Shown: positions 19,131 to 39,035 of the stretch, one piece after another
How the letters are laid out: every line of letters starts with the position of its first letter
How positions within the stretch are numbered: the first letter of the stretch is position 1
Assembly (NCBI GenBank): GCA_018434685.1
Contig: JAHDOV010000006.1
Location: 124,001-188,000, forward strand
Reading direction: 5' to 3'
Source: Deltaproteobacteria bacterium
GTDB lineage: Bacteria; Desulfobacterota; Desulfomonilia; UBA1062
Length of the DNA stretch: 64,000 nt
Program-made: the position numbers and the translations under genes
The notes under the pieces: model-generated
Database searches by the model: none
What the model was told of the DNA's origin: nothing
What the model saw: the letters and a program-made list of their open reading frames with translations, nothing else

Positions 19131-19925
19131 TTATTCACAGGCCTTGCGGGCGAATATCGCCGCCCCGAGGGCGCCGATGATCTGGGGGTCCACCGGCAGC
19201 GTGGTCACGTCCATGTTGATGATCCTGGTCAGTGCCCTGATAAGGCCCATATTCTTGGCACAGCCTCCGGTGACCGTCACCTGCGGCCTCATGCCGATGC
19301 GCTTGAGTAGGGAGAAGCACCTCTTGGACACTGCCGTCTGGATGCCCGCAGCGATCTCCTCGGGAGGGTTCTTCCTGGCAAGGAGGCTGATCACCTCGCT
19401 CTCTGCGAAGACGCTGCACTGTGCGGTGACCGGGATGATCTTCTTTGCCTTGAGCGACAGATCTGAAAACTGGTTCAAGTCCATGCGGAATATGCGGCTC
19501 ATGGCCTCGAAGAAGCGACCGGTGCCGGCAGCGCACTTGTCGTTCATGGCGAACTCGAGGACCGAGCCGTTGCCGTCAAGCGCTATGGACTTCACATCCT
19601 GACCGCCGATGTCCACAATGGTCTTGATCTGAGGGTTGCAGAAAAAAACCCCCATCGCGTGGCAGCTGATCTCCGAGATGTTCTTGTCGGCAAACGCCAC
19701 CTCGTTTCTCCCGTAGCCCGTACCCACCAGGTAGGCGATGTCACGGTAGCTGCCCATGCCCGGAACCTGGCCGCAGGCCTTCTCCAGGGCAAGAATCGAT
19801 GTCTGCTCCGGATCGATCTCGCTCGGGATAATGGTGGTGGCAATGATGGCGCCGGTTTCATCAAGGATAACGGCCTTTCCTGTTGTCGATCCTACATCAC
19901 ATCCACCGAAATACTTAGTCGCCAT
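19131..19925 (-). CDS. ATP-dependent acyl-CoA dehydratase/reductase activase (HgdC/BcrD family), copy 3
   Basis: A 264-residue BadF/BadG/BcrA/BcrD ATPase of the ASKHA fold: phosphate-1 loop GGCDVGSTTGKAVI, VGTGYGR, phosphate-2 IVDIGGQDVKSI, adenosine loop VTGGCAKNMG. The two Cys that bridge a [4Fe-4S] cluster between subunits are in DKCAAGTGRF and TAQCSVFAESE. Such proteins use ATP to fire one electron into the dehydratase or reductase subunits. A single activase beside the 377/509/518-residue subunits suggests a homodimer serving that module. It is the last gene of the minus-strand run, 38 bases after the ferredoxin gene. Confidence 0.93.
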   Translation of the reverse strand: MATKYFGGCDVGSTTGKAVILDETGAIIATTIIPSEIDPEQTSILALEKACGQVPGMGSYRDIAYLVGTGYGRNEVAFADKNISEISCHAMGVFFCNPQIKTIVDIGGQDVKSIALDGNGSVLEFAMNDKCAAGTGRFFEAMSRIFRMDLNQFSDLSLKAKKIIPVTAQCSVFAESEVISLLARKNPPEEIAAGIQTAVSKRCFSLLKRIGMRPQVTVTGGCAKNMGLIRALTRIINMDVTTLPVDPQIIGALGAAIFARKACE

Positions 19926-19963
19926 ATCTCTCTCCCCCTTGTTGTCGTTTTATTGGTTTAATC

Positions 19964-21268
19964 CTAGATATCAAGCATCCATCCCTTGCCCTGTACTTTC
20001 GCAACGACCTTTGCCGTAGCCAGGAAGGTGGACCTGAACATATCGCTCATGAGTGTTCTCTTGACCTGCGGCAGTCTCAGGAAAGCCCCGATAAACGACC
20101 GCATGAACTCCTGGGTCACGCTTCCAGGGTTGTCGAACAGCTGATTCTGGAGGGTGCCACGCTCGAGCGATGACAGCATGGTGATCTCGAAGAGCGATTC
20201 CGGATGGAGGACCCTGCTTTCGCGGGATATCATCTCAAGGGCACCCGTGGGGCACTGGGCGATGCATACTCCACACCCAACGCATAGATCGGTATTCAAC
20301 TGACCCTTTTTCTTCTTCTTTCCATCATGCGCAGATACCAGACTCAAGGCATTCACCGGACATACGGCCACGCATTTCCCGCATCCGCTGCACCTGCCGG
20401 TATCGATCTTTGAAATGAAGCTGGAGGTGACGACGCAATTCAAGTATCCGAACTTGTTCAATCCTCCCAGGAAATTACAGCAGCATTTGCAGCAATGACA
20501 AATGGCCATGGGGTTTCTCCTTGTGTTGACAGAGCAGAACACAAGGTTATATTCCTTTGACCGGGTAAAATTATCCATCATCTCGGATCTCGAGACCTCT
20601 CGGCCGAAATTGTTCCTGATGGCATACTCTGCCCCGATCCCTAAGAAACTGCAGCTCTCAAGAGGCGCATCGCACTGATTCTTCCCGGTATGCAGTTTTT
20701 CATTCCGGCAGGAACACACGCCGATGGCGAGTTTGGCAGAGCTCTCGATGAGCGATGTGGCCTTTTCGTAATCAAAGAATTCCGTGTGGCTGCCTTCCTT
20801 GATGGACTCTTCTACGGGGATGACCCGTAGTGCGGAGGTCTGTTCATTGTTCGAAAAATTTGCTGCATAGACAGAGCCGAAGTATTCATGAAACAGCTCG
20901 GCCCATCTCTTGGTATTGAGATTGTCACCGGATCTCATCATGGTGAATTCGAATATCCCTATGGCTATGGGCCAGGACATATAATAGTACTGGCCATGGT
21001 CTTCGTTCCACAGATCCATGACAAGCCCTTTGGTGCATAACCGTTCCAGGATTCCCTGCAGGCGCTTCTTCCCGACTCCGGTTACGAGGGAGATTCTCTC
21101 GAGGGAGGAGAGGGTATAGGGCATTTTTACGACGACGTCTGCCTCTTCGGGGGTGTAGAGTTCGTTGAGGATGCTGTGCCATGTCTCATTCCAGGGGGCC
21201 CTCACATACAGGTTGTCAAGCTTGTTGCCCAGCTGATGGTATGCGTGGCCGTCATCGACCATAGTCAT
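19964..21268 (-). CDS. Cys-rich 2x[4Fe-4S] protein with N-terminal winged-helix-like region
   Basis: A 434-residue protein. Residues about 45-110 look like a winged helix (SLERISLVTGVGKKRLQGIL). The middle contains CSCRNE with further Cys (IGVCSCRNEKLHTGKNQCD), then a dense cluster CHCCKCCC near residue 265. Two bacterial ferredoxin motifs follow, CSGCGKCVAVCP and CVGCGVCIAQCP, split by a Lys-rich loop. It is probably the electron donor for activase 3 or its dehydratase module, 29 bases downstream of it on the transcript. A GGAG site precedes the start. Confidence 0.85.
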   Translation of the reverse strand: MTMVDDGHAYHQLGNKLDNLYVRAPWNETWHSILNELYTPEEADVVVKMPYTLSSLERISLVTGVGKKRLQGILERLCTKGLVMDLWNEDHGQYYYMSWPIAIGIFEFTMMRSGDNLNTKRWAELFHEYFGSVYAANFSNNEQTSALRVIPVEESIKEGSHTEFFDYEKATSLIESSAKLAIGVCSCRNEKLHTGKNQCDAPLESCSFLGIGAEYAIRNNFGREVSRSEMMDNFTRSKEYNLVFCSVNTRRNPMAICHCCKCCCNFLGGLNKFGYLNCVVTSSFISKIDTGRCSGCGKCVAVCPVNALSLVSAHDGKKKKKGQLNTDLCVGCGVCIAQCPTGALEMISRESRVLHPESLFEITMLSSLERGTLQNQLFDNPGSVTQEFMRSFIGAFLRLPQVKRTLMSDMFRSTFLATAKVVAKVQGKGWMLDI

Positions 21269-21297
21269 GCTTTAACTCCTTAATCTATAACAATAAA

Positions 21298-22854
21298 TTA
21301 TTGTACCTCTAGATCGAGGCGCGGCGCCTTCATCACGTTCTCCATGAAGAACTCCACCTGGTTCATCATGCCGTCTGTGGACACGATGCGGGGATCGAGC
21401 AGGTCATAGTCGATCACGAGCAGCGGTATCTTCCTCTCACGGCATTTCTCCCGCAGGATGCCGTTCATAGCCTGTCCGCTCTTGCAGCCTACATGGTTGG
21501 CCACCCACACCATGTCGAGGTCGAACTGCTTCACCATGCGGAAGATGTCGTCCAGGTAGTTCTCCGCCGGCCCCCGGGTGTGACGGACCATGGGTCCCTG
21601 CATGATGGTCCTGCCGAGCCCCCTGAGCATGGATTCGGGGGTCGAGGTGTCGATGGGGACATGGCGGTGGAAGGTCATGCTGTCATTGATGACGGTGACG
21701 CCATAGGTGCGTTCGGCATGGTTGACGATATCGATGAAATGGGGGAAGGGCGGGTTCCAGATCACAGCCCGGAATCTCTCGTTCTCAGTTGCGGGAATCC
21801 CTGCCGCGAGATTTTTCCGTGCCATCTCCACCAGCCGTTCGTAATGGTGTATGGCTGTCGGGTGTCCCGGAAAGAGATTGACGTGCCACATGTGGCTCAG
21901 GAACACGGCCTCAGCGGCAAGGGGGGCAGGCCTTGCCCGGATCATGTCCCAGAGCTCCAGCTCCAGCTCCAGAACCCGGTTGCGGCCTTCACAGCTCTTC
22001 CGGAGGCGGTCCCAGTTCATGCGGCCGGGGGTGTGTTCCTCGAGGAAGGAGATCATCCCCTTGAGGTCATCGACGAAGAACCGCTCCGCCCGTTCATTGT
22101 AGAAATTATACGGGATATCGATTCGGTAGATGGGGATCCCCAACTCCCGCTCCATGAGGGAGTAGGACGCCATACCCGCATCGCAGGGCATATTGGAGCT
22201 GAGCATGGCAAGGCCTCTGGGCATCTGGCCCTTGAGCACCATGCCCATGGTGGCCTTGGGCAGGCTGCAGGCATCGGGGTTTACCCCGGCGTTTTCCGCT
22301 TCGTCAATGTATTTCAGGTCGCTCATCCCGGACAGAAAGGGCAGGAGCAGACCCATGGACTCCAGCACCCATACCTTCAGGCCCATGGAGCGTGCCATGT
22401 CCGGGGGAACCATTTCCTCGCTGATGATCATACGGTCGGGATGGTAAAACAGCTCTTCCAGGTTCTCTGCAAGGGTAAGGGAGACCGTGTAGACGGTCAG
22501 GCAAATGGATTCCAGATAGCATCCGCTCCGCCCTCGGCAGAGCCGCCGCATCAGGCCGGTCACTTTGAGCAGATAAAGCATCCAGGGATAGCGGACAAGC
22601 TCCCGGACGAAACCCGGCCCCCGTCTTGCGACGAGCTTCGCAATGCACAGCCAGATCAGGACCCAGTATTTGGCATAGACCAGGAAGTCCTTTGCCGATA
22701 GGTTGCCCATGTCGCACGCGATCTCCCGTATGGACTGCCCAAAGGACCTGAGCAGGCCCGGAAGCGCTTGCAGAGGTGAGTGCAGTCTGTTCATTATATC
22801 ATGCAGCTTCCGTAATGTACCCGATTCTGTATCGGGCAAGGCTTTCATCTTCAT
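21298..22854 (-). CDS. 2-hydroxyacyl-CoA dehydratase / benzoyl-CoA reductase superfamily subunit, long copy A
   Basis: A 518-residue member of the HgdB/BcrB/BcrC superfamily. Putative cluster-ligand Cys occur in NPDACSLPKATMG, SSNMPCDAGMAS and NHVGCKSGQAMNG. The C-terminal half carries the usual Rossmann-like repeat ending in IPLLVIDYDLLDPRIV. About 90 extra N-terminal residues, partly hydrophobic (YWVLIWLCIAKLV), distinguish it from classical subunits of about 430. It is closely similar along its whole length to the neighbour at 22851, so the pair arose by tandem duplication. It overlaps that gene by 4 bases. It probably pairs with the 377-residue subunit at 24404. Confidence 0.88.
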   Translation of the reverse strand: MKMKALPDTESGTLRKLHDIMNRLHSPLQALPGLLRSFGQSIREIACDMGNLSAKDFLVYAKYWVLIWLCIAKLVARRGPGFVRELVRYPWMLYLLKVTGLMRRLCRGRSGCYLESICLTVYTVSLTLAENLEELFYHPDRMIISEEMVPPDMARSMGLKVWVLESMGLLLPFLSGMSDLKYIDEAENAGVNPDACSLPKATMGMVLKGQMPRGLAMLSSNMPCDAGMASYSLMERELGIPIYRIDIPYNFYNERAERFFVDDLKGMISFLEEHTPGRMNWDRLRKSCEGRNRVLELELELWDMIRARPAPLAAEAVFLSHMWHVNLFPGHPTAIHHYERLVEMARKNLAAGIPATENERFRAVIWNPPFPHFIDIVNHAERTYGVTVINDSMTFHRHVPIDTSTPESMLRGLGRTIMQGPMVRHTRGPAENYLDDIFRMVKQFDLDMVWVANHVGCKSGQAMNGILREKCRERKIPLLVIDYDLLDPRIVSTDGMMNQVEFFMENVMKAPRLDLEVQ

Positions 22855-24380
22855 GCTGAAGCTCCCTGTCCATCAAGGCGTGGTGCTTTCATGACGTTGT
22901 CCATGAAATGTTCCACCTGCCGCTTCATGTTGTCATGGGACACGATGCGGGGGTCGCTCAGGTCGTAGTCGAGGATGAGCAGGGGTATCCCCTTTTCCCG
23001 GCACTTCTCACGAAGAATGCCGTTCATGGCCTGTCCCCCCTTGCACCCCACGTGGTTTGCCACCCAGATCATGTCGAGGTCGAACTGCTTCTGCGCGCGG
23101 AAGATGTCGTCCAGGTAGTTCTCGGCCGGACCCCGGGTGTGGCGGACCATGGGGCCCTGCATGATGGTCCTGCTCCAGCCGCGCAGCATGGATTCGGGCG
23201 TGGAGGTGTCAATGGGCCGGTGATGGTGGTAGGTCATGCTGTCGTTGATGAGCGTCAGGCCGTAGGTGCGCTCAGCCCAGTTGAAGATGTCTGAGAAATG
23301 GAGGAACGGCGGATTCCATACGATGGTCCGGTACCGTTCGTTGACCGTGGCCGGGGTATTGTTTCTAAGGTTCCTTCGTGCCATATCCACAAGCTTTTCG
23401 AAGTGCCTGACCGAAAACTCGTAATCCGGGGTGACATTCACATTCCAGAGGTGGCTCAGCCATACCGCCTCGGATGCCAGGGGGGCGGGCCGGGCGCGGA
23501 GCATGTCCCACAGCTCCAGCTCGAGTTCCAGGATGCGGTTGCGGTTCAGACAGATCCGCCTGAACCGGTCCCAGTCCATGCGGCCCGGCGTGTGCTTTTC
23601 CAGCCAGGCGATCATGGCCTTCACATCTTCGATGAAGAGGTCCTCGGCACGCTCATTGAAGAAATGGTATGGCACATCGAGGCGGTAGGTGGGGATGTCG
23701 AACATGCGCTGGATGAAGGCGTACGAGGCGGCCCCGGCATCGCAGGGCATATTGGAGCTCACCATGGCAACACCTTTTGGCGTGTGGCCCTTGATGACCA
23801 TGCCCACCGTGGTCTTGGGCAGGCTGCAGGCATCCGCATTCATGCCCTCGTTTTCAGCCTCGTCTATGTATTTCAGGCACGATTCCGAATCCAAGATGGG
23901 CAGTATGATGCCCAAGGCCTCGAGGAGATAGGCGTCAAGGCCCATGGAATGGACAATATCAAGGGGAACCAGGTCCTCGTTTACTACCATTCGCTCGGGG
24001 TGGAAGAACATCTGCCGGAGCATGTCGATGGTCCCGGCGACAACGGTCTGCAGGGCCATGCACACCGATTCGAGGTACAGCCCTGTCCTGCCGCGTCCAT
24101 ACCGCCGCATCAGCCCGTTGATCTTGAGCAGGGTCAGTATCCAGGGGTTCCTGATGAGAGTCCGGATGGATCTCGCCGGACCGAGCTCGACGACAAACTC
24201 GAGGCCGAACTTCAGGATACAGTAGTAATTGATGGCCCAGTATTTCATATAGATGAGAGCTGCCCCGGGGTCCGGCGAGCTGATGAGATATTCGGGCAGA
24301 GAGTTCTGCCATACCCTCCTGCCTGTCTTCGCGAGCGTCAAGCCCAGGGACGTGAGATAGGTACGCACGTTTTTCAACAT
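22851..24380 (-). CDS. 2-hydroxyacyl-CoA dehydratase / benzoyl-CoA reductase superfamily subunit, long copy B
   Basis: A 509-residue paralog of the next gene. It shares blocks such as NADACSLPKTTVGMVIKG, SSNMPCDAGAASYAF, HTPGRMDWDRFR, IDTSTPESMLRG, RTIMQGPMVRHTRGPAENYL and NHVGCKGGQAMNG. Both copies retain all candidate cluster Cys. ATG 24380 is preferred for its GGGAGG ribosome site; an ATG at 24404 that overlaps the previous stop is the alternative and would give 517 residues. It lies between the 377-residue subunit and copy A in one transcription unit. Confidence 0.88.
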   Translation of the reverse strand: MLKNVRTYLTSLGLTLAKTGRRVWQNSLPEYLISSPDPGAALIYMKYWAINYYCILKFGLEFVVELGPARSIRTLIRNPWILTLLKINGLMRRYGRGRTGLYLESVCMALQTVVAGTIDMLRQMFFHPERMVVNEDLVPLDIVHSMGLDAYLLEALGIILPILDSESCLKYIDEAENEGMNADACSLPKTTVGMVIKGHTPKGVAMVSSNMPCDAGAASYAFIQRMFDIPTYRLDVPYHFFNERAEDLFIEDVKAMIAWLEKHTPGRMDWDRFRRICLNRNRILELELELWDMLRARPAPLASEAVWLSHLWNVNVTPDYEFSVRHFEKLVDMARRNLRNNTPATVNERYRTIVWNPPFLHFSDIFNWAERTYGLTLINDSMTYHHHRPIDTSTPESMLRGWSRTIMQGPMVRHTRGPAENYLDDIFRAQKQFDLDMIWVANHVGCKGGQAMNGILREKCREKGIPLLILDYDLSDPRIVSHDNMKRQVEHFMDNVMKAPRLDGQGASA

Positions 24381-24403
24381 GAGGGTCCTCCCTTCCCGGA
24401 TCA

Positions 24404-25537
24404 TTATCTGCCCATGCTCTCGATGAACGCCTGGACGCGGGTGCGGAGCTGTCCTTCCCCACCGAGGCGGTATTCCCTCTCCAGTTTGAGCACCGGGATC
24501 CCTTTTTTCCTGAGCGCCGTGACCAGCGGCATGGAGTCGACCCCCCAGAGATCGCAGAACTTGATAATCTCGATGACGACCCCGTCCACCTTGTATTCCT
24601 TCACTGTTTCAATGATGGTTTGAAGTCTCCGGTCGAAGTCCTCCATCATGCGCGGGCACAGCGTCTTCTTGAAGGAATGTTCGGCAAGGGTCCTGAAGGG
24701 GTCTCCATTCGGCTCGATGGACATGAGCCCGGGCATGGAACCGGTACAGAACCGGTCTGCCACCACGAGCCCTCCCTGAGACTCGATGATGCGGATATAG
24801 TCCGGATCATGCAGATGCCCGCCCACCAGCATGAGACGGGCCCGGTAGTTCTGTATGCCATCGCGGTTCTCGAGCTCTTTTTTGTAATCGAGAATATTCG
24901 GGAGGATCAGGTCCTTGGGCGATACAAGGGAGGCCATGAGCATGGCGTGGAACTCGGTGCCGCTCAAAGGCGGGTTTGGTTTCTTCCTCAGCTCGCCGAT
25001 TGCCCCTATGACGTGTGCGAATTCATTCCACTCAGCTATGGCTTTCCTGAGGGATGTGTCGCTCATATCGACGCCGAAATTCGCTGAGAGTCTGTCTGCG
25101 AGCATCCTGAGTTCTTCGGCCAGCCAGGTGGTGGTGACCTCGTTAACCTTGCGGGGAACATCGAGAACATGAGAGAATGCCGGCTTTTTCAGATACTCCA
25201 GGTTGTCATAGAGCCGCTGCATGTGTGCGCACGAGGGCACGAAGACCCAGCCCTGAATCAGGTCGTACCGGTCGTCAAGGGCGAACTCCAGGATGCTGCG
25301 CGCATAGGAGCAGATGAAATTCGACAGGTAGTTGTCGGCAATCTCGGTGCCCGCGATCCCCGGTGCCTGAAGGCGCACCGGGAAGAGCCTGTCCGCCATG
25401 AGCAGGGCTTCGGGCACGAACGAGCAGGAATACCCGATGGGTATGCGCCCATTGTTTCTTGCCTGTTCGACCAGGCTGTTCTGCGGGCTCTCGAGAAGTG
25501 CCTCGAATTCGCGCGATGCTCTTCCAGCGGTCATCAT
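24404..25537 (-). CDS. 2-hydroxyacyl-CoA dehydratase subunit D (HgdB/BcrC-like), module 2
   Basis: A 377-residue superfamily member of the short class. Candidate [4Fe-4S] ligands are the Cys in IGYSCSFVPEALLMAD, FICSYARSILEFAL, FVPSCAHMQRLYD and IIKFCDLWGVDS. VLKLEREYRLGGEGQLRTRV near the end is the standard C-terminal signature of HgdB-type subunits. It likely forms the catalytic heterodimer with one or both long subunits encoded directly downstream. The end touches the next start (TAATG). First gene of module 2; 78 bases separate it from the EFR1 gene upstream. Confidence 0.9.
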   Translation of the reverse strand: MMTAGRASREFEALLESPQNSLVEQARNNGRIPIGYSCSFVPEALLMADRLFPVRLQAPGIAGTEIADNYLSNFICSYARSILEFALDDRYDLIQGWVFVPSCAHMQRLYDNLEYLKKPAFSHVLDVPRKVNEVTTTWLAEELRMLADRLSANFGVDMSDTSLRKAIAEWNEFAHVIGAIGELRKKPNPPLSGTEFHAMLMASLVSPKDLILPNILDYKKELENRDGIQNYRARLMLVGGHLHDPDYIRIIESQGGLVVADRFCTGSMPGLMSIEPNGDPFRTLAEHSFKKTLCPRMMEDFDRRLQTIIETVKEYKVDGVVIEIIKFCDLWGVDSMPLVTALRKKGIPVLKLEREYRLGGEGQLRTRVQAFIESMGR

Positions 25538-25615
25538 AGCACTACCCCTGATACCATCGGGTATCCACGGAATTGATGAAAGAATAGCATCATAACCATT
25601 TTCTCCTCATACAGG

Positions 25616-26449
25616 TCAGTAGATGCGCTCTCCCGGCTCCACATCGCCGAAGAGCCGGGCAAAGAGCGTGTTGTACAGGGTAAAGATCACGATGTTGCCG
25701 AACAGCCAGGAAGAGGTTACGGCTTTCTGCGGGCAGATGTTCTGGCAATGGTAGCAACGGATGCACTGGTCATCGAGGATCGGATATGGATCAAGTGAAA
25801 TGCTCTTCATGGGGCATTCCCGGGCGCATATGGTGCACTGTTTGCATAGAGACTGATCAATCCTCGGCCTGGGCAGCAGGATGCGAAGCAGAAAGGGCTG
25901 TGCTATGAGCGACACCAGGTCATAGAATCCCCACGTGCGCCTCAGTGCATACCTGCTTGTTTCAGGCACAGGCCCTGACCGGCCGCTCTGAAGATGATCG
26001 TCAAGCGACTCGGCAAACACGCGGGCGTGTGTCAGGTCTTTCTGGTCGGGGCGTTCCGGCATACGGCCCATGAGGCATGGGGCAGGGTGATGAACGGTTC
26101 CTCTCGCCTTGAACCCTGCCATGACTGAAGCGCCTTTGCTCTGCAGGAGGCGTGCGAGGTCATGGAGCACCCGCCCGGGAGAGCCTCCGGAGGTGGCAAA
26201 GACAAAGGCTCGCTTACCCTGCATATACGGGAGCGTTGAGAGGTAGTCCTTGACAGGAGTGGGGGCCTGGCTTTCAAAACAGGGGGTTCCTATGCCCAGC
26301 ACGTCGCAACCTGTAATATCTGCAAGCGGGGTTTCCATCATGGGCAGAACCCTGACGGTGTGCCCTTTCATGCCGAACTCATCCGCCATGGTCTGGGCAA
26401 CCTTGCGGGTATTTCCGGTCTGGGAAAAGTACACCAGCAGCATGTTCAT
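25616..26449 (-). CDS. EFR1-family flavodoxin/ferredoxin fusion
   Basis: A 277-residue protein. The N-terminal flavodoxin-like domain begins MNMLLVYFSQTGNTRKVAQT, with the FMN phosphate loop SQTGNT and the second loop FATSGGSPGRV. A C-terminal pair of [4Fe-4S] motifs follows: CKQCTICARECP and CIRCYHCQNICP. This is the EFR1 architecture. A hydrophobic tail (SSWLFGNIVIFTLYN) might contact the membrane. It is well suited to feed low-potential electrons to the activases on both sides. It follows the CooC-type ATPase by one base. Confidence 0.9.
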   Translation of the reverse strand: MNMLLVYFSQTGNTRKVAQTMADEFGMKGHTVRVLPMMETPLADITGCDVLGIGTPCFESQAPTPVKDYLSTLPYMQGKRAFVFATSGGSPGRVLHDLARLLQSKGASVMAGFKARGTVHHPAPCLMGRMPERPDQKDLTHARVFAESLDDHLQSGRSGPVPETSRYALRRTWGFYDLVSLIAQPFLLRILLPRPRIDQSLCKQCTICARECPMKSISLDPYPILDDQCIRCYHCQNICPQKAVTSSWLFGNIVIFTLYNTLFARLFGDVEPGERIY

Positions 26450-26450
26450 C

Positions 26451-27269
26451 TCAGGTATCCTCCCTGCCTGCGTGACAGGCGGGCGTGCACGGTGAATTCA
26501 TGCCGGCACCGAAGATTCTATCGACGATTCCTGCGACGGCTGCAAGGGAAGGGGATGTCTGAGGCATACCGGTGAGCGGCTCGCCTCTGAAGTCCAAGGA
26601 TCTGATCAGGTCATCGTCAGTGAGCCAGCCATATACCTCAAGGCGCGTCCTGGCCTTTATGTCGTTCACCTCGGAGAGGTCTCTTACCCTGTTGAGCACG
26701 AGCCCCATACTCGTAAAGTCAACCGCCTTCTTTTCGTTCACGACATCTGCTATGGTGTTGGCAACGCCGATGCCTTTTGCCGATGTGTCCGAGACCAGGA
26801 CCAGGTGATCGACCGTTTTCATCACCCGCCTGTTGATCTGCTCGATACCGGCCTCACCGTCGATGAGCACGATATCGAAGTTGCCGGACAGGTCGCCGAT
26901 AATGTCCTTGAGGAGCGAGTTCACCTTGCAGAAGCACCCCTCGTCCTCGGGCCTGCCGATCGCCAGGAGCGCAAACCCCTCACGCTCCTCCAGGGCCTCG
27001 AACACCTCATAGTCCAGGAGCTTACTCGTCTCCTGACCTCCCGGGGATTCACCCTTCTGTATCCTGGCAATGAGACCCTTCCTGATGTCGTCAACGGTCT
27101 TCCTCACCGGTATGCCCAGTGCCGTTGCCAGGCCGACAGCCGGATCGGCATCAATGGCAAGGATCTTCCTGCCATTGCCTTTTGCGAGCAGTTTCACCAT
27201 GAGGGCACAGACCGAGGTCTTGCCGACCCCTCCCTTGCCGCACATTGCCAGTATTTTCGTATCAGCCAT
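26451..27269 (-). CDS. CooC/MinD-type P-loop ATPase
   Basis: A 272-residue SIMIBI ATPase. Deviant Walker A is MCGKGGVGKTS, switch I includes ILAIDADPAVGLATALG, and Walker B/switch II IVLIDGEAGIEQINRR. The CooC hallmark is present: GRPEDEGCFCKVNSLLKDII, where the CxC at the dimer interface binds Ni or Zn in CO dehydrogenase maturation ATPases. No CO dehydrogenase catalytic subunit is in the window. The gene overlaps the ACS-like gene upstream by 8 bases, so the pair is coupled and probably works together on a metal site or an electron-transfer complex of this locus. Confidence 0.88.
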   Translation of the reverse strand: MADTKILAMCGKGGVGKTSVCALMVKLLAKGNGRKILAIDADPAVGLATALGIPVRKTVDDIRKGLIARIQKGESPGGQETSKLLDYEVFEALEEREGFALLAIGRPEDEGCFCKVNSLLKDIIGDLSGNFDIVLIDGEAGIEQINRRVMKTVDHLVLVSDTSAKGIGVANTIADVVNEKKAVDFTSMGLVLNRVRDLSEVNDIKARTRLEVYGWLTDDDLIRSLDFRGEPLTGMPQTSPSLAAVAGIVDRIFGAGMNSPCTPACHAGREDT

Positions 27270-30980: not shown

Positions 30981-30992
30981 GCATATCCCTCC

Positions 30993-31235: not shown

Positions 31236-31247
31236 GAAAAACCTCCT

Positions 31248-32381
31248 TTAAGAAATCCTTTCCACGAAGGCATCGAGCCGCATCCTGATCCTGCCCGTCT
31301 CCACCAGGGGGCCGTACTCCCTCTCGAGCCGCATGCAGGGGATACCCGCTGCCTCGAGGTCGCGCTCGAGCACGCCGTTTTCCGAGCCGTGAAGGTCGCA
31401 GAACCGCACGTTCTGCAGGATGACGCCGTCCACTGCTGTTTTGTTGACGAGGTCCATGATGTAGGAACGCCGGTCCTTGTAGCAGCCGAGCATGCGGGGA
31501 CAGATGCTGTTGCTCAGGTAGTGGGATGCAAGGGTGGGGATGGGATCGGCCTTTTCATCCACCAGGTTCGCATACGTGCGCGATCCGAAGCACACGGTGT
31601 CTGCAACGACAATGGCGCTGCTATCCTCGATCAGGTTGATGAAATCCACATCGTCGTTGGCGCTCCCGATGAGCATGAGGCGCTTTTTGTGATCCGATAC
31701 GGGTGGTGTATTCTCCAGGTCGGCAAGGATGTCTTTGAGCATGGCTCCCCACTCTTCACGAGGCATGGCATGACCCGCAATGAGGATGGCCATGGCATCC
31801 GCGCCCGTGATGGGCACCTCGCCACGATACCTGAGTTCGTCGAGTTTCCGGAGGAGAAGTCTTCCCTGGTTGTAGACCCTGATGGATTTCTTCAGGGCTT
31901 TGGCTGTGATTGTGACCTTGAAGTGTTTTTCCAGGGTGGAGATCATCTCGGTGAGCTCCTGTGCATAAAAATCGATGCTGTAATCCACGGCCTTATGGGG
32001 TACGGAGAAGTACTCGTAGTATCCCGGCAGCGTTCCCGGATAATCCTCGCTCGCCTTTCTCCAGCACTCTTCGAGCCTGCGCATGGAGTCGCAGCCGTTG
32101 CTGAGGATGGCACCGTCCAGGAAAGCGTACGCCCCCTGTCCTGCGAGTTGCAGCATGCACTTGGGCAGGCTGCAGTTTACCGGACCGAAGTAGGAATCAC
32201 CGATGGAGACCGACGTGGTGCCGACGCCCCGTAATCTGAACGGCAGCAGCCCTGCGGCGTGGAGGATCTCCTCGGGTATGAAGGTGCAGGCGTAGCCCAC
32301 GACCTTGCCGCCTTGTTTCTTCCACTTCTGTACGAATTCGTTGTGCAGGTTCAATGCAGTCTTTCTCAGTTTTTCCATCAT
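31248..32381 (-). CDS. BcrC/HgdB-like subunit of the benzoyl-CoA reductase/dehydratase superfamily, module 1
   Basis: A 377-residue short-class subunit. Candidate ligands: Cys in VVGYACTFIPEEILHAAG, VNCSLPKCMLQLAGQG, LSNGCDSMRRLEE and NVRFCDLHGSEN. The C-terminus MRLEREYGPLVETGRIRMRL is diagnostic of the family. It is of equal length to the module 2 subunit at 24404 but clearly diverged from it, so the modules are not a recent duplication. It partners the 468-residue subunit, with the 80-residue protein between them. Confidence 0.9.
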   Translation of the reverse strand: MMEKLRKTALNLHNEFVQKWKKQGGKVVGYACTFIPEEILHAAGLLPFRLRGVGTTSVSIGDSYFGPVNCSLPKCMLQLAGQGAYAFLDGAILSNGCDSMRRLEECWRKASEDYPGTLPGYYEYFSVPHKAVDYSIDFYAQELTEMISTLEKHFKVTITAKALKKSIRVYNQGRLLLRKLDELRYRGEVPITGADAMAILIAGHAMPREEWGAMLKDILADLENTPPVSDHKKRLMLIGSANDDVDFINLIEDSSAIVVADTVCFGSRTYANLVDEKADPIPTLASHYLSNSICPRMLGCYKDRRSYIMDLVNKTAVDGVILQNVRFCDLHGSENGVLERDLEAAGIPCMRLEREYGPLVETGRIRMRLDAFVERIS

Positions 32382-32384
32382 TTC

Positions 32385-33668
32385 TCACCCCCTGCCGTCA
32401 GCGGCCAGTACAGCCCTGAAGGCCTCCAGGGCCTCCCTGTGTTCAGGACTTGCATAACCGCCATCAGGGTTGATGAGCTCGCTCAAGGCCCTGATGATCA
32501 GCGGCATCACAACAGCTGCCAGCGGCTTGAGGGCCTCCACCACATCGGGGATCAGCCACTGGAATGTCTTTCTGACCTCATCAGCATTCACGGAGTCGAC
32601 GACCCCGCTCAAGGCGTTGCTCACGATGTCCGGCTTGGCATCATGGATTTTGTTGGCGACCCTGCATGCGGTGTTGATGAGCCCGGCAAACTCGTAGGTG
32701 TCAAGATCCGACATGCCCTCGGTTATGGCAGACTTCAGGCCATCGGGATCGATCTCCTCCATGACGCCCAGTTTGCGGGCCCTTGCCTTGATTGCAGATG
32801 TTTTCACCGACCCGAAAGATGCAAGGGATGACAGCGTTATCCCGGGATTGTCTCTCAGAGCGGAGGCCAGGGCGTTGGCAATTGACTCCCTGTCTTCGGC
32901 AAAGATGATGCGGATCTTTTTCACCAGCTCCGGGTCCATTTCGGAAAAGCAGTCATGGAGAAGGTCAGTGAGGTAGATTTCGAACAGCGGCTTGCCGCCC
33001 TTTCCGAGCAGCAGGCTGCCGGTATGGATCCTCCGGATGAACTCTCTGACGGTATTGATGAGCTGTGCAGTGTCTGCGCCGTTGATGCCCTTGACCAGGG
33101 AGAGGATGATGTCTGCAAGCAGGTCGGGCCCTATTGCCCTTTCGATGGGGAGCAGGATCTCCCGCGAGGCCTTTGTGAAGATGTTCATGAGCGGGATGAC
33201 GGTTGCCACCAGGGTTCCCACCTTTGCCGGGTATTTCCAGAGATTTTCGTTGAAGGCCTCAATGGTCTTCAGGACGCATGGTTCAGAGGTTTCCACCATC
33301 TCCCTGATCTCCCCGAAATCGGTATTCTTCAGGAAGTCGTGGATGGCAGCTCCTCGCGTAGCGGCGTGGCAGGCCTCCTTCCCGGCGTGGTCTGCATTGA
33401 CTTTTCGTGCCCATGCGGTCAGGAACTGACCCACATCGGCCGATATGCCCCTGCCGGTGCCGTTCTTGCCCGGCTGCAGCACCTTTGAGACGATCCAGTT
33501 CACCGGGGGCGCGATCCTGGCCCTGATCCTTCCCTTGTTGGCCCAGGTGCTGATGAGGTCTTTTGCCACCTCGGCGAGCAGGGTCCTCGTGCCCCTGGCC
33601 CGCACGGTCTCGCCGATGATTCTGGCCGAGATCCGGGTCAGCTGGGCCTGATTGTCAGTAATAGTCAT
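32385..33668 (-). CDS. Large helical protein of an unknown family (paralog 1 of 3)
   Basis: A 427-residue, almost entirely helical protein that I do not recognise. No signal peptide and few Cys. A region at about residues 155-215 (TVIPLMNIFTKASREILLPI, then GPDLLADIILSLVKGINGAD) resembles the core of the two smaller proteins at 34439 and 35088, and a second weaker copy lies near the C-terminus (PDVVEALKPLAAVVMPLIIR). The stop is 4 bases before the 377-residue subunit start. It may be a scaffold or regulatory partner of the reductase complex; this is inference from position. Confidence 0.75.
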   Translation of the reverse strand: MTITDNQAQLTRISARIIGETVRARGTRTLLAEVAKDLISTWANKGRIRARIAPPVNWIVSKVLQPGKNGTGRGISADVGQFLTAWARKVNADHAGKEACHAATRGAAIHDFLKNTDFGEIREMVETSEPCVLKTIEAFNENLWKYPAKVGTLVATVIPLMNIFTKASREILLPIERAIGPDLLADIILSLVKGINGADTAQLINTVREFIRRIHTGSLLLGKGGKPLFEIYLTDLLHDCFSEMDPELVKKIRIIFAEDRESIANALASALRDNPGITLSSLASFGSVKTSAIKARARKLGVMEEIDPDGLKSAITEGMSDLDTYEFAGLINTACRVANKIHDAKPDIVSNALSGVVDSVNADEVRKTFQWLIPDVVEALKPLAAVVMPLIIRALSELINPDGGYASPEHREALEAFRAVLAADGRG

Positions 33669-33689
33669 CCTTCATACCCTCCGCTTCAT

Positions 33690-34337
33690 CTATTTCTTTG
33701 CCTGCAGGGCTGTTCTGCCTGCCTCTGTCAGGTACGATTCAAACATGAGGTTGCTCATGGATGTCAGCGTCATGATGGCCTCTTCCCTGGTGAATTTCTC
33801 TTCCATGAGGTAGCTGTGCCCGAGGTGCATGGCCATGCCCACTACGGCATAGGCCAGCGCAGGTGTATTCACCCCTTCAATGACGCCCATATTGAGCCAG
33901 TTCTGGATGTCGTCGGCGAGGTCCTGGGCGATGTCGCTGTAGTATCTCCAGACGTTTCCATCCAGTTCCTCGTCCACGCCGAAGCTGCCCCGCAGCAGGA
34001 TGATGAACTGCTGGCGGTGGTTGTCGATGTAGTCGAAGTAGGCCGAGAAGGTATCGTTGAGCTTTGCTTCCCGGTCGGTGCGGTCCCAGATGTTTACCGG
34101 CTCCCTGAGTTTCTTGATGCGGTCGCGGAAATCCTTGAAATTCTGCCGGGTGATCTGCTCGAACAGGTCCCTCTTGTCCTTGAAATAGTTGTAGAACGTG
34201 CCGGCGGACATGCCGACGGCCTTGACGATGTCCATGACCTGGGTATTGTGGTAGCCCCTCTGGCTGAAGAGCTCTTCTGCCGCCTCGACGATGACCTCTC
34301 TGGTGAACAGCCTCTTTTTGTCAGCAAGTTTATCCAT
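33690..34337 (-). CDS. TetR/AcrR family transcriptional regulator, copy 2
   Basis: A 215-residue TetR protein. The HTH (about residues 15-55) reads EELFSQRGYHNTQVMDIVKA then VGMSAGTFYNYFKDKRDLFE. The ligand domain of about 150 residues is all-helical. Its HTH is nearly identical to that of the TetR at 38373, so both probably recognise the same operator. ATG 34337 is chosen; an in-frame GTG at 34343 is possible. A gap of about 100 bases separates it from the upstream gene, room for an internal promoter, and the gene sits 21 bases before the long helical protein. Confidence 0.92.
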   Translation of the reverse strand: MDKLADKKRLFTREVIVEAAEELFSQRGYHNTQVMDIVKAVGMSAGTFYNYFKDKRDLFEQITRQNFKDFRDRIKKLREPVNIWDRTDREAKLNDTFSAYFDYIDNHRQQFIILLRGSFGVDEELDGNVWRYYSDIAQDLADDIQNWLNMGVIEGVNTPALAYAVVGMAMHLGHSYLMEEKFTREEAIMTLTSMSNLMFESYLTEAGRTALQAKK

Positions 34338-34438
34338 AATCACTTCTCTCGTGGTCTTAAGGCTCAGGCTCTCGGTGCCGGGATATGGAAGATTACTCCT
34401 TCACCACGTGCCTGAAGCCTGATGTCTAAAGCCTTTGT

Positions 34439-35086
34439 TTATATGCCGAACCGCCTCCCGATCCTGTTCCGGGCAAGCCGGAGCACCCAGGAGGCGAGGT
34501 GCCACTTCTGGTCGAGGAATGCCTCGGCCAGACCCAGGGTGGCCTGCCTGATCTCATCTTTATCCGTGTGGGTGAAGACATCCGAAACAAAGGTGCTCAA
34601 CACCTTCGGGTTGTCGCGCAGGAGCGTGTTGATGGTGCGTGCAGCCGCGTTTATTGCCCCGGCCACGGCCCCGGGGCCGGAGGAGATGACCGCGTTTCTC
34701 ACCTTGAGCCGCACCTCGGGTGATTTCTCCCACAGGGTTGACACGAGGCTCGCCCAGGCCCCCGAGCAGGTGCCGACTGCCTTGGTGTCGATGTCACCTG
34801 CCAGGCTCTCCATGAAGGACTTGAGGGTCTCGGGTGGATACGTGTCTTTGAGCTGGATTGCCAGTTCGGAACAGGCACTGGTGAGGGCGTTTATCACTAT
34901 CGGCAGCGAGCTTGCAAGGCCCAGGAAAACTTCGGGATCTTCGGTGGCCAGGGTCTTTACCAGCTGACTCCCTGTCTCCGGCCTCATCGAGTTCAGGTTC
35001 ATCCTGAGGATGTCCTTGTACACGGGCGTTTTCAGGAACTGTTTCAGGATACCGCCGCGGCTTCTTCTCGTCGTCTCGGAGAACAT
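34439..35086 (-). CDS. Helical protein of the same unknown family (paralog 2 of 3)
   Basis: A 215-residue helical protein, not recognised. Its first half aligns by eye with the 142-residue neighbour: GGILKQFLKTPVYKDILRMN, SQLVKTLATEDPEVFLGLAS and ELAIQLKDTYPPETLKSFME match RILEEVLDKPAFKEGLRLVL, PRLVRTILGTDVEVPLAIVG and ELIIQVREKFPPVLLADIVE. The C-terminal half is Arg-rich. ATG 35086 has a perfect AAGGAGG site, and the gene starts one base after the neighbour's stop. Soluble; no signal. Confidence 0.75.
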   Translation of the reverse strand: MFSETTRRSRGGILKQFLKTPVYKDILRMNLNSMRPETGSQLVKTLATEDPEVFLGLASSLPIVINALTSACSELAIQLKDTYPPETLKSFMESLAGDIDTKAVGTCSGAWASLVSTLWEKSPEVRLKVRNAVISSGPGAVAGAINAAARTINTLLRDNPKVLSTFVSDVFTHTDKDEIRQATLGLAEAFLDQKWHLASWVLRLARNRIGRRFGI

Positions 35087-35087
35087 A

Positions 35088-35516
35088 TTATTTTTCCTCC
35101 TTGTGCTGTTGCTGTTGTTGGGCGGCTGTCCAGGCAGCCCTGAAGACAGGGGAGAGGAGCTCGCTGAGGTCTTTTGCACCAGCCATGACCCGCGCGAGGC
35201 TCTCTGGGTCGATCTCGTTCAGCAGCGATTCCACAATGTCGGCCAGCAGTACGGGGGGAAATTTCTCCCTCACCTGAATGATAAGCTCATCCAGAGCCAG
35301 GATAACGGCGTTGGCCAGTGCAGGAAGAGCACCCACAATGGCAAGCGGCACCTCGACATCCGTACCGAGGATCGTGCGTACCAGCCTGGGGCTGTTCTGC
35401 GGGTCGATGTTCATGAGTACGAGACGCAGGCCTTCCTTGAAGGCGGGCTTGTCGAGGACTTCCTCGAGGATACGGTTATTGGAATCGATGATTCCTCTGC
35501 CTGTCTGTTCAGCCAT
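35088..35516 (-). CDS. Helical protein of the same unknown family (paralog 3 of 3)
   Basis: A 142-residue helical protein, the smallest of the three. It holds the shared repeat core (PALANAVILALDELIIQVRE, FPPVLLADIVESLLNEIDPE) and ends in a Gln-rich charged tail (AAQQQQQHKEEK). ATG 35516 has GAGGAG upstream; GTG 35531 is less likely. It is flanked by acyl-CoA dehydrogenase 2, which overlaps the longer frame, and by paralog 2. The equal domain in all three proteins suggests a heteromeric assembly. Confidence 0.75.
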   Translation of the reverse strand: MAEQTGRGIIDSNNRILEEVLDKPAFKEGLRLVLMNIDPQNSPRLVRTILGTDVEVPLAIVGALPALANAVILALDELIIQVREKFPPVLLADIVESLLNEIDPESLARVMAGAKDLSELLSPVFRAAWTAAQQQQQHKEEK

Positions 35517-35527
35517 GGCCTTTCTCC

Positions 35528-36802
35528 TCACAGGGTCTCGCAGTTGAAGAAATACCGGGCAGCCTCCATCTGACAGAGCTGCTTGCCGCCCATCCAGAGC
35601 TGGATGATCTTTATGTCGCGCCAGTGCTTCTCGATGTCCCAGTCCCGGTCCGCTCCGTAAGCGCCAAGTACATCCATGGCCTTGCCGAAGTTTTCTACTG
35701 CACGATCAGAGACAAAATCTTTGATGTTGCGGATCCTGCCCACAACGTCCTCCGAGACCAGAGGCTTGCCATAGGGTTTGTTGCGGCGGTCTCCTATCAT
35801 GGCTGCTTCGTGCCCGAGGATGCGGCAGATGTCTATATCGCCTGCAATCCTGCCGATGATGCCGGCTATGGCATCATTCTCCTTGAGGGGACGGTTGTTG
35901 TAGGTTCTGGTGGATACAAACTCATAGAGCCGCTCGTAGAGGTTCATCATGGCGCCGGTGAGGAACGCGCAGCTTGCCATCTGGCCGAAGGAGATAAGCT
36001 GATAAAAGGCCTTTGCGTCGTCTCCCGGGCCGTGGGCACGGTACCAGCTCGGCACGCGAACGTCCTCGAACCAGATATCGCCATTCTTGTCCGCTGCCAT
36101 ACCTGCCTTTTCATAGGCCCCGCCCTGGGTGACGCCGGGAAGGTCGGCAGGCACGAAGATAAAGGCAAAATCATCAGGATCGTTCGATCCTGGCTTCGTG
36201 GTGCACGGCACGCCGAAGAGTTTTGCTACCCCGCCTGAATTTGTCGGCCAGAGCTTGTGGCCGTTGATCACCCACTCGTCACCATCGAGCCGTGCAGTGG
36301 TGCGGATGGTCTTTCCGCCTAAAAGCCCGAGGTTTTCAATGTCTGAGCCGCCCTGGGGCTCTGTCATGGCATTGGCGGCAAAGACAGCCTTCTTGGTGTT
36401 GCAGAACATGGGGGCAAACTCCTTGATGAGCCTCTCATTCACAAAGGGGTCGATCATGATTACGAGCAGGGGCCAGAAGGTTACACACAGGGCTACTGCC
36501 ATGCCTGTATCCGCTCTGCCAAGCTCTTCACTGAGCATGTAGCCCATGCGGAATATATAATCGGACTGCGCCAGACCCCACCCGCCGTACTCCTGGGGGA
36601 AGAGGGATTTCTGGAGACCGAGCTCGCCCATGAGCTTGTCAAAGGCGGGTTCGATCAGATGGTGGTCCTTCCAGTCTTCGTCGTATTGACGGCGAAAAGG
36701 CATGACAGTCTCTTCCAGGTGCTTTCTGATCACGTTTCTGAAATGACGGTCGAATGGAGATATGTACTCCTCGGGCCGAGAAAAATCATTGAAATGTTTC
36801 AT
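35528..36802 (-). CDS. Acyl-CoA dehydrogenase-fold flavoprotein 2 (canonical catalytic Glu absent)
   Basis: A 424-residue ACAD. FAD/substrate segments are visible: FAANAMTEPQGGSDIENLG, INGHKLWPTNSGG, GQMASCAFLTGAMM and FGKAMDVLGAYGADRDWDIE. The C-terminal motif HWRDIKIIQLWMGG aligns with RDxKIxQIYEGT of standard enzymes, placing Met where the catalytic Glu should be. It ends ARYFFNCETL, very like its neighbour (ARFFYNCTEI). The two may form a heteromer. Dehydrogenation by another base, or an altered function, is possible. It starts 15 bases after ACAD 1. Confidence 0.9.
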   Translation of the reverse strand: MKHFNDFSRPEEYISPFDRHFRNVIRKHLEETVMPFRRQYDEDWKDHHLIEPAFDKLMGELGLQKSLFPQEYGGWGLAQSDYIFRMGYMLSEELGRADTGMAVALCVTFWPLLVIMIDPFVNERLIKEFAPMFCNTKKAVFAANAMTEPQGGSDIENLGLLGGKTIRTTARLDGDEWVINGHKLWPTNSGGVAKLFGVPCTTKPGSNDPDDFAFIFVPADLPGVTQGGAYEKAGMAADKNGDIWFEDVRVPSWYRAHGPGDDAKAFYQLISFGQMASCAFLTGAMMNLYERLYEFVSTRTYNNRPLKENDAIAGIIGRIAGDIDICRILGHEAAMIGDRRNKPYGKPLVSEDVVGRIRNIKDFVSDRAVENFGKAMDVLGAYGADRDWDIEKHWRDIKIIQLWMGGKQLCQMEAARYFFNCETL

Positions 36803-36817
36803 GATATCATCCTCTTC

Positions 36818-38056
36818 TCATATCTCAGTGCAGTTGTAGAAGAAACGGGCCGTGTCCATCTTCACCGGCGCCTCGGCGCCAACGCCGCACAGGAGAGACT
36901 GGATGGTCTTGATGTCCCGCCAGTGCTTTTCTGCGTGCCATTCCTTGGCATAGCCGGCTGAACCCATGAGCTCCAGGCCGCGATTGATCGCCCTCATGAC
37001 TGCCTGTTGGACCCGGCTTCCGATCATTTCCGAGAACGTGAAGGCCCTCCTGCCATTACTATCCCAGTGATCGGGCCTCGACAGGAGGTGTGCGAGGTCG
37101 AACAGGAGGATCTTTGCCAGTGCTGTTTCCTCTGCCACATCTGCCAGGACCGATGCACACAGCGGGTTTTCCTTGAGCGTGATGCCGCCTTTGATCACAC
37201 GGGTCTCGCTCCAGTCGGCCAGGATCTCGAAGAAGTTTGCACCGGCACCGATGCTCACTGCGCCGAGCAGCAGGTTGAGCCAGGTATAGAGTTCCTCCAC
37301 CACGCCGTCGCGGTCGATCACGTTCTCCTTCGGGATGGCAACAGCATCGAAGGTTATTTCAGCGTTCTCGCAGGCATTCAGTCCGGTGGTTTTGATCGAA
37401 GGCCCCCTCCTTATACCCTGGGCATCGCCAGGGACCATGGCGAGACACGGCGTGCCCTTCTTCCCTGCGCATACCACACAGAACAGGTCTGCCATGCTGC
37501 CGCCGGACAGCGGCCTCAGATCCGTGCCGGAGATGGTGTATCCCCCCTTTGTGGCCTTGGCCTCTGCACCGATTGAACGGCCGAGAAACAGGGGCGTTTC
37601 CTGCCCGGCCCTGCCGGGACCCGGCAGGATCAGGACGGGATTCTTTATTTCATCGGATACATACAGGGGCGAGAGCGTACCACAGAGTTTCTTGTTCAGG
37701 TTGTGTGTCATGGCGATCGTTGCAAAGAGTGCATACTTCATTGCGAGCAAAACGCCGATAGCAGCATCAGCCCTGCCGATCTCGGACAGGACACCGGTGA
37801 TGCCCGGTGCATTGGTGTGGGTGTCCCATCCGAATCCGCCGTATTCTTCCGGCAGAGTGAGCCACTGCAGGCCGATTGTCAGGTGGAGCTTTTTTCTTGC
37901 CTCGACAAAGAGGGTTGAATAGTTCTCCCGGTATTCCATCCTCTTCGAAAGGATCTCTTTTTCGGCCCACTGCCGCACGAGCACGACCACACTCTTGGTT
38001 TCTTCATCAACCAACTGCCGTGGAAGAATGAAGAGTTCCTCCAGGTTCTTACCCAT
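36818..38056 (-). CDS. Acyl-CoA dehydrogenase-fold flavoprotein 1 (canonical catalytic Glu absent)
   Basis: A 412-residue divergent ACAD. N-terminal helical domain with LTLPEEYGGFGWD, a middle beta domain with ISGTDLRPLSGGSMADLFCV, and a C-terminal domain with LGAVSIGAGANFFEIL and GLELMGSAGYAKEWHAEKHW. RDIKTIQSLLCGVG replaces RDxKIxQIYEGT, so the Glu position is Leu. The typical MTEPxAGSD segment is also lost (PGPGRAGQETP). ATG 38056 has GGGAGGAG. It is the first gene of the long minus-strand run, directly behind the candidate TetR operator. Confidence 0.88.
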   Translation of the reverse strand: MGKNLEELFILPRQLVDEETKSVVVLVRQWAEKEILSKRMEYRENYSTLFVEARKKLHLTIGLQWLTLPEEYGGFGWDTHTNAPGITGVLSEIGRADAAIGVLLAMKYALFATIAMTHNLNKKLCGTLSPLYVSDEIKNPVLILPGPGRAGQETPLFLGRSIGAEAKATKGGYTISGTDLRPLSGGSMADLFCVVCAGKKGTPCLAMVPGDAQGIRRGPSIKTTGLNACENAEITFDAVAIPKENVIDRDGVVEELYTWLNLLLGAVSIGAGANFFEILADWSETRVIKGGITLKENPLCASVLADVAEETALAKILLFDLAHLLSRPDHWDSNGRRAFTFSEMIGSRVQQAVMRAINRGLELMGSAGYAKEWHAEKHWRDIKTIQSLLCGVGAEAPVKMDTARFFYNCTEI

Positions 38057-38249
38057 AGCTCCTCCCAATAGTCAGGCACACAACCCAGGTAGCGGGTCCG
38101 CCCTTAGTTCATGTCCGCAGCTCAGATACTTTCTGCAAAGGGAAGGAGAGGATGATACTGTCTTCAGTGATGATACCGGTCATCAGCTGTCGTGTCGAAC
38201 AAGGCACTCCCCCCATAACCCCCCGCAAGGTAAATAACATCAATTATCA

Positions 38250-38273
38250 TAATGAAAGTTCATTACCATTCAT
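38250..38273 (-). promoter_or_regulatory. Candidate TetR operator upstream of the acyl-CoA locus
   Basis: In the AT-rich gap between ACAD 1 (start 38056) and the TetR gene that follows it on the map (38373), a perfect 7+2+7 palindrome, TAATGAAAGTTCATTA, lies at 38250-38265. It is followed at 38268-38273 by another ATTCAT half-site. Symmetry, size and position fit a TetR-dimer site, possibly for two overlapping dimers. Repression by the TetR proteins at 38373 and 33690 is inferred. Confidence 0.6.
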
Positions 38274-38372
38274 AAAATATAATTACTGTCTGTCGGTTGT
38301 CAAGATGAAATTGTAAAAATATGAACAGTCATACGCATCGGGAACAGCGCTGCCTGAGCGGAAGAGGGACTT

Positions 38373-39035
38373 CTACTCGGCGGATTGTGCCTCAACGGCT
38401 TCAAGGGCCTTCCTGCCTTCCTCGGTGAGGTAGGCCTCGAACATGGCAAGGATCATCTTTATCAGGTTGGCAATGATCTCTTCACGCGGGTACTTCTTCT
38501 CCATCAGGTACATGTGGATGAGCTGGAGAGACATGCCGATGGCAGCAGTGCCGAACAGCATGGGGTCGATCCCCTCGATGACCCCGTCGTTGATCCAGCG
38601 CTCGAGGTCCTCGCCGGCATCCTGGGCAAAGCCCTGGAAATACCTCCACACGCTCACGTCCATGTCCATGTCCACCCCGAAGCTCCCCCTCAGGATCATG
38701 AGGAGCTGCTGGGGATTGTCGTCCACGTAGTCGAAGACGGCGTTGAACGTGTCCATGAGGGTCCTGGTCCTGGCCTCGTGGCTCCAGATATCGATAGGCT
38801 CGCGCATGAGTTTGACGGTTACCCGGAGACTCTCGAGGCTGTCCAGGGTGATCTGCTCAAAGAGGTCTCTCTTGTCCTTGAAGTGATTATAGAACGTGCC
38901 GGCAGACATGCCGACAGACTTGACGATGTCCATGACCTGCGTGTTGTGATAGCCAAACTTGCTGAAGAGTTCACAGGCAGCAGTGACGATCTTTGTGCGA
39001 GTCTCTTCTTTTCTCTTTTCCGACCCCTTGGACAT
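38373..39035 (-). CDS. TetR/AcrR family transcriptional regulator, copy 1
   Basis: A 220-residue TetR protein with HTH CELFSKFGYHNTQVMDIVKS then VGMSAGTFYNHFKDKRDLFE, and an all-helical ligand domain (LRGSFGVDMDMDVSVWRYFQ). It is similar end to end to the regulator at 33690, including the SFGVD and VWRY blocks, so they are paralogs. The gene reads toward the acyl-CoA operon and is separated from it by about 300 bases containing a palindrome. It probably senses an acyl-CoA or related acid. Confidence 0.93.
   Translation of the reverse strand: MSKGSEKRKEETRTKIVTAACELFSKFGYHNTQVMDIVKSVGMSAGTFYNHFKDKRDLFEQITLDSLESLRVTVKLMREPIDIWSHEARTRTLMDTFNAVFDYVDDNPQQLLMILRGSFGVDMDMDVSVWRYFQGFAQDAGEDLERWINDGVIEGIDPMLFGTAAIGMSLQLIHMYLMEKKYPREEIIANLIKMILAMFEAYLTEEGRKALEAVEAQSAE

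Follow-up and report, generated by a model that had tools for sequence, protein, structure and literature searches.

The DNA analysed here is a 64,000-nt window of a Deltaproteobacteria bacterium genome (assembly GCA_018434685.1, contig JAHDOV010000006.1, positions 124,001 to 188,000), and its minus strand carries, from 39035 down to 19131, a system that is real, conserved and unusual and represents a variant of the class I benzoyl-CoA reductase (BCR)/2-hydroxyacyl-CoA dehydratase (HAD) superfamily with apparently undescribed partners. The reading that we favour, with modest confidence, is that of a TetR-controlled catabolic operon encoding two ATP-driven double-cubane reductases of this superfamily that would act on acyl-CoA and share an acetyl-CoA synthase-like protein (ACSl) and a CooC-like ATPase. 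Window proteins were identified with Pfam and NCBIfam profiles, which confirmed the five HGD/Bcr subunits, three activases, EFR1 protein, CooC-type ATPase, ACS-like protein, Cys-rich ferredoxin, two proteins of the acyl-CoA dehydrogenase (ACAD) fold and two TetR proteins named in a preliminary description of this DNA. In minus-strand order the features are as follows.

38373..39035 (-): TetR2 regulator (PF00440), 55% identical to TetR1
38276..38303 (-): sigma-70-like promoter, TTGACA-16-TATATT (11/12)
38250..38265: predicted palindromic operator TAATGAAAGTTCATTA, just downstream of the -10 element
36818..38068 (-): ACAD2, protein of the ACAD fold lacking both the catalytic Glu and the TEP FAD motif
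35528..36802 (-): ACAD1, ACAD-fold protein, highly conserved, with Met in place of the catalytic Glu
35088..35516 (-): HEL140, helical protein, HHalign 99.9% to HEL246
34439..35086 (-): HEL246, helical protein, no Pfam family
33690..34343 (-): TetR1 regulator (PF00440), syntenic in relatives
32385..33668 (-): HEL427, helical protein directly upstream of HGD_B2
31248..32381 (-): HGD_B2 (PF06050), module 1 double-cubane-type subunit, six Cys
30993..31235 (-): conserved 80-aa protein, 53-75% identical in syntenic loci
29574..30980 (-): HGD_A3 (PF06050), module 1 subunit, putative three-Cys [4Fe-4S] site
28774..29577 (-): ACT3 activase (TIGR00241), start MMSAG
28008..28793 (-): ACT2 activase (TIGR00241), start MYVAG, 50% identical to ACT3
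27262..28011 (-): ACSl, CdhC/ACS domain PF03598 (E 9e-14), C-x2-C-x5-C tail, no A-cluster domain
26451..27269 (-): CooC-like (CooC/MinD-type) ATPase, deviant Walker A and CxC
25616..26449 (-): EFR1 flavodoxin-ferredoxin, probable electron carrier, NF038196 at 110.3 bits (cut-off 75)
24404..25537 (-): HGD_B1 (PF06050), module 2 double-cubane-type subunit, six Cys
22851..24404 (-): HGD_A2 (PF06050), module 2 three-Cys subunit with N-terminal extension
21298..22854 (-): HGD_A1 (PF06050), paralogue of A2, 65% identical
19964..21268 (-): FdxC, Cys-rich 2x[4Fe-4S] ferredoxin-type protein (2x Fer4), syntenic in L041, L044, L059 and L093
19131..19925 (-): ACT1 activase of module 2 (TIGR00241, 235.7 bits)

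The locus had been described as almost gap-free on a single strand, and indeed the operon genes overlap or abut except at three places, 97 nt below HEL246, 78 nt before EFR1 and 304 nt below TetR2 (38069-38372); this last gap, the only sizeable one, holds the promoter. The 80-aa gene had been overlooked. The longest open reading frames (ORFs) of ACT2 (28008-28934) and ACT3 (28774-29796) are too long, with the true starts lying later, at MYVAG and MMSAG. The host genome comprises 4.29 Mb in 58 contigs, and the close relatives found by sequence are deltaproteobacterial metagenome-assembled genomes (MAGs).

Whether the modules reduce or dehydrate their substrate had been left undecided, and our alignments point to double-cubane reductases. 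The ligands of the [8Fe-9S] cluster in BzdN are Cys36, 73, 100, 263, 293 and 327 (PMC11971306), and all six are invariant in B1, in B2 and in 48 of 48 clade B subunits, whereas two of these positions are P and A in HadC. Because HADs have lost the double cubane (PMC11971306), retention of the six Cys in the B subunits suggests that both modules are reductases. In the tree the 48 B subunits group together with support (100/98), separate from BzdN, the double-cubane cluster protein (DCCP), HadC and three B paralogues of the same genome, a result that is conditional on the choice of tree rows from these loci and limited by long branches. Additionally, A1, A2 and A3 align with Cys95, 128 and 380 of BzdO, whose three Cys bind a [4Fe-4S]-OH2 cluster (PMC11971306); across 18 sequences two of the three never vary, and the third is replaced by His in only two of them. 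These two are L056 (8414-9730, GHMGHKD) and L096 (3908-5206, GHKGHKD), and the replacement suggests a site of two Cys and one His. The activases scored 233-241 bits against TIGR00241 (cut-off 125.4) and keep both cluster Cys within the motifs NDKCAAGTG and CSVFAESE of their translations.

The same data bear on the possibility that the modules are radical 2-hydroxyacyl-CoA dehydratases of the HgdABC/HadBC type, with the ACADs acting as downstream enoyl-CoA reductases. Superfamily membership, matches to both the HadB and HadC models and the position of HadC as second-closest solved structure to the B profile agree with such a function, and HgdABC, HadABC and FldABC share with the window the superfamily fold and the architecture of an A/B heterodimer with an activase. 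Nevertheless, we consider it unlikely, since the double-cubane Cys are complete and two of them are absent from HadC, the HadB and HadC matches (36.4 of 750 and 158.6 of 700 bits) fall far below the cut-offs, and the ACADs are devoid of the Glu used by enoyl-CoA reductases of this fold; the window also has parts beyond those of HadABC. DCCP (PDB 6ENO, 7YYL) resembles the window in its six-Cys B subunit and ATP-dependent activase; however, DCCP is homodimeric whereas the window B subunits are encoded beside a separate A subunit, and neither B1 (160 bits) nor B2 (173 bits) passed the cut-off of 350 of the DCCP model NF040772.

A role in benzoyl-CoA-type degradation was also considered. Class I benzoyl-CoA reductases (BzdNOPQ, BcrABCD, MbdNO; PDB 8S02, 9G87) have a BzdN-like six-Cys subunit and a BzdO-like three-Cys subunit as in the window, BzdN is, among solved structures, the closest to B2 (143 bits), and the two activases of module 1 recall BcrA/BcrD. 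In addition, NF043006 (cyclohexane-1-carbonyl-CoA dehydrogenase) was the top family match of ACAD1, although far below its cut-off. However, Oah exceeded the TIGR03200 cut-off in 0/19 genomes of the host family (f1), the host genome among them, versus 11/12 of the sister family, which argues against benzoyl-CoA. Furthermore, all Bcr/Bzd models stayed far below threshold, the window passing none of the NCBIfam equivalog cut-offs (for instance, 153.2 of 453.8 bits for B2 against the BzdN model), and His131 of BzdO is not conserved. The window also differs from these enzymes in having two modules in one operon and in adding ACSl, CooC, HEL and pseudo-ACAD genes. Benzoyl-CoA degradation is thus disfavoured, chiefly through the missing Oah, and we regard it as quite improbable. 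Genes neighbouring the modules in relatives (a CoA ligase with AOR, an ADP-forming acyl-CoA synthetase, ECH, SDR and thiolase), together with an ECH gene in the window (17203-18027), fit an acyl-CoA catabolic setting. The substrate is probably a hard-to-reduce acyl-CoA.

Several observations weigh against the assignment of the operon to two acyl-CoA reductases with a shared helper pair. Possession of the six Cys may be insufficient proof of a reductase: two other B paralogues of the host genome also have them, which calls for caution, and one of these, in L137, branches with HadC at low support. The equivalent of BzdO His131 is N in A3 and G in A1 and A2, although MbdO of 3-methylbenzoyl-CoA reductase is also without this His, which is therefore not universal in the family. 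As for the helper pair, some ACSl loci have no CooC, and BzdNO with its double cubane has been produced in E. coli (PMC11971306), which indicates that this cluster does not generally depend on a dedicated factor. AlphaFold models of ACSl (pLDDT 36) and HEL427 (pLDDT 34), built on thin alignments, were unusable. The paralogues lie in three more HGD loci of the host genome, all without ACSl (L131, L132 and L137 on contigs C38, C37 and C32); L132 has an activase upstream of the order HGD_A-HGD_B-HGD_A, and none of the six double-cubane Cys is present in its B subunit.

The reductase modules and their partners are conserved as a group. With ACSl as query, 43 of 60 relatives gave a match at E <= 0.001; the close standalone matches (42-71% identity) belong to the host's own family, and those in the sister family are full-length acetyl-CoA synthase (ACS). 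In the flanks of the standalone matches, the gene order is shared by about 20 contigs of the host family, and a second family of the same phylum has the complete gene set as well (L093, f32). The preliminary description had named co-occurrence of the parts in other genomes as a check beforehand, and this is what we found. Since the same order is kept in these contigs and in f32, the arrangement is not due to chance. A loose grouping of unrelated genes that inheritance has kept side by side could account for the modules being separable, with module 2 absent in some genomes, but such an explanation is largely refuted, and to us highly improbable, by the persistence of the order over the identity range given above with overlapping genes, by the presence of ACSl near HGD/activase genes in several further families and by the conserved promoter-operator. 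The host genome has 12 HGD-D genes at four loci, whereas just two of 14 control genomes have even one.

Our comparison also showed that the locus contains two modules, as had been proposed, each of which is found apart from the other. The type 1 module consists of HEL427-B2-A3-ACT3-ACT2, usually with ACSl-CooC, and occurs with no type 2 alongside in G005, G012, G019 and G141. The type 2 module consists of B1-A1-ACT1 with ACSl and usually CooC, and stands without type 1 alongside in f33 and f37; in f37 both modules exist on different contigs and ACSl-CooC accompanies type 2. The idea of one composite enzyme is not borne out, because each module occurs elsewhere without the other; the locus looks like two enzymes, a fusion of both module types around a single ACSl-CooC pair. 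A1 and A2 are 65% identical duplicates, of which several relatives keep a single copy, and relatives with no module 2 alongside (L094, L048, L049, L051, L052 and L057) often have two HGD_A3 copies, comparable to the A1/A2 duplication. No family was assigned to the 80-aa protein (30993-31235), which lies between HGD_B2 and HGD_A3 and is found beside an HGD_A3 copy in relatives too.

ACSl (249 aa) aligns only with the middle domain of ACS, residues 333-484 of the M. thermoacetica enzyme (PDB 1OAO). It shares this domain with AcsB/CdhC but is devoid of their A-cluster and CODH-binding domains, and it has a tail of its own, C-x2-C-x5-C, found at the end of 45 of 45 ACSl ORFs. In 40 of the 45 loci ACSl has an HGD or activase gene no more than a few kb away, almost always on its own strand; the 45 include the same contig twice in places (such as L040/L061 and L045/L063). 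Two of the five exceptions (L054 and L108) are at contig edges, and the others (L110, L111 and L112), all from one family (f13), have only an ACAD beside ACSl, with a DctP-type solute-binding protein next in L111; these three are the only context away from a contig edge without a reductase. By comparison, 0 of 16 full-length ACS genes had an HGD or activase neighbour within short flanks. The CooC-like protein resembles the nickel-maturation ATPases CooC/AcsF in its deviant Walker A motif (GKGGVGKT) and in a CxC that aligns with that of PDB 3KJE, both invariant in 23 sequences. However, its gene sits in a reductase operon, and carbon monoxide dehydrogenase (CODH) exceeded its cut-off neither in the host genome (G000) nor in the rest of f1 except for G010; full ACS is likewise missing from the f1 genomes except G010, a MAG with 7% contamination. 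CODH/ACS was accordingly rejected as the client of CooC.

Given the proximity of ACSl to HGD or activase genes in most loci, although CODH and full ACS are absent from nearly all family genomes, ACSl and CooC probably serve these reductases. Regarding the metal/redox maturation block proposed before, the association of a helper pair with the enzymes stands, and the maturation role itself is plausible but unproven. Assembly, loading or repair is our first choice, with electron or CoA delivery second. We found nothing relevant in the literature linking BCR/HAD enzymes with ACS-like or CooC proteins, subscription papers being mostly outside our coverage, so novelty is provisional; ACSl is apparently a recurring and undescribed partner of this enzyme class.

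The second choice places ACSl-CooC in catalysis or electron delivery, with ACSl presenting CoA esters or binding an Fe-S cluster through its Cys tail, and CooC acting as a NifH-type ATP-gated electron donor. It concerns the helper pair only and is compatible with the modules being reductases. In its favour, CooC is a P-loop protein of the MinD/NifH class with its CxC retained, the Cys motif of ACSl is invariant, and the middle domain of ACS probably contacts CoA. Still, ATP-gated electron transfer is already available from the activases, a number of ACSl genes have no CooC beside them, and ACS Trp418, a residue linked to CoA binding, is not conserved in the ACSl alignment, so that we treat this role as a tentative one of rather low probability. 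A more speculative extension of the assembly role, and in our judgement an improbable one, is that ACSl and CooC form a dedicated loading system giving the A-subunit active site, which in some clade members has two Cys and a His at the ligand positions, a modified, perhaps nickel-containing, cluster. If true, this would mean a new kind of reductase cofactor made through re-used acetyl-CoA synthase machinery.

The ACAD-fold proteins had been listed by their fold, and our alignments show that they are atypical. In ACAD1 the catalytic Glu is replaced by Met in 10 of 11 syntenic copies, including that of the window, with L129 keeping Glu, as do most of the more distant homologues. ACAD2 lacks both this Glu, replaced by Leu or Cys, and the TEP motif in all seven sequences. 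Because the catalytic Glu is lost, neither is an ordinary dehydrogenase. The three helical proteins do form one family, as had been noticed (HHalign 99.9%, 97.6% and 97.3%), for which a Pfam search gave no credible match. In the intact type 1 modules examined, HEL427 immediately precedes B2-A3-ACT3-ACT2 even where ACSl is not adjacent.

The operon is likely one regulated unit. Upstream of ACAD2 we found the promoter TTGACA-16-TATATT together with the palindrome TAATGAAAGTTCATTA, which is expected by chance 0.09 times in the window (with two mismatches or fewer). Similar -35/-10 elements precede ACAD2 in L047 and L127, and TAATGA-N4-TCATTA occupies the same place in L039, L047 and L127 and lies beside a TetR gene in L128. 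This palindrome would be the binding site of a TetR protein.

In the two-reductase reading that we favour, low-potential electrons would come from reduced EFR1 and/or FdxC, and the dedicated electron supply suggested earlier is supported. Activase dimers (ACT2/ACT3 in module 1, ACT1 in module 2) would then hydrolyse ATP to drive these electrons into the B subunit, where the [8Fe-9S] cluster would store them, and the A subunit, at its [4Fe-4S]-OH2 site with three Cys, would reduce the CoA-bound substrate by a radical route. ACSl and CooC could act as an assembly, loading or repair pair, in which ACSl would be a scaffold or metal carrier through its Cys tail and CooC the ATPase. ACAD1 and ACAD2 may pair up as flavoproteins, binding or processing the substrate or product with no base of the usual kind for the alpha proton, and the helical proteins could be structural or adaptor subunits. 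Double-cubane enzymes driven by ATP operate at the very edge of the reducing power that biology can reach, few of them have a known physiological substrate and little is known of how their clusters are made. The locus defines a clade with the recurring extra partners ACSl, CooC and HEL427, offering a handle for finding and testing them, and it shows part of acetyl-CoA synthase being used in the absence of CODH and ACS. Both a novel function for an enzyme and a novel route of maturation or partnership thereby become directly testable.

Lastly, other genes were found near these modules. A GMC-type flavoprotein of about 450 aa adjoins an HGD module in L097 (2235-3590), L125 (8739-10070), L130 (14028-15359) and L109 (18509-19879) and is a possible further pathway enzyme. 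In L095 (14312-17972), genes for POR gamma, a TPP/POR fusion and an FrhB-like protein lie directly upstream of a type-1-like module, a possible dedicated ferredoxin reduction. Within the window, about 9 kb from the operon, the plus strand encodes a ZnuA-type metal-binding protein with an ABC ATPase and an ABC-3 permease (7644-10304).

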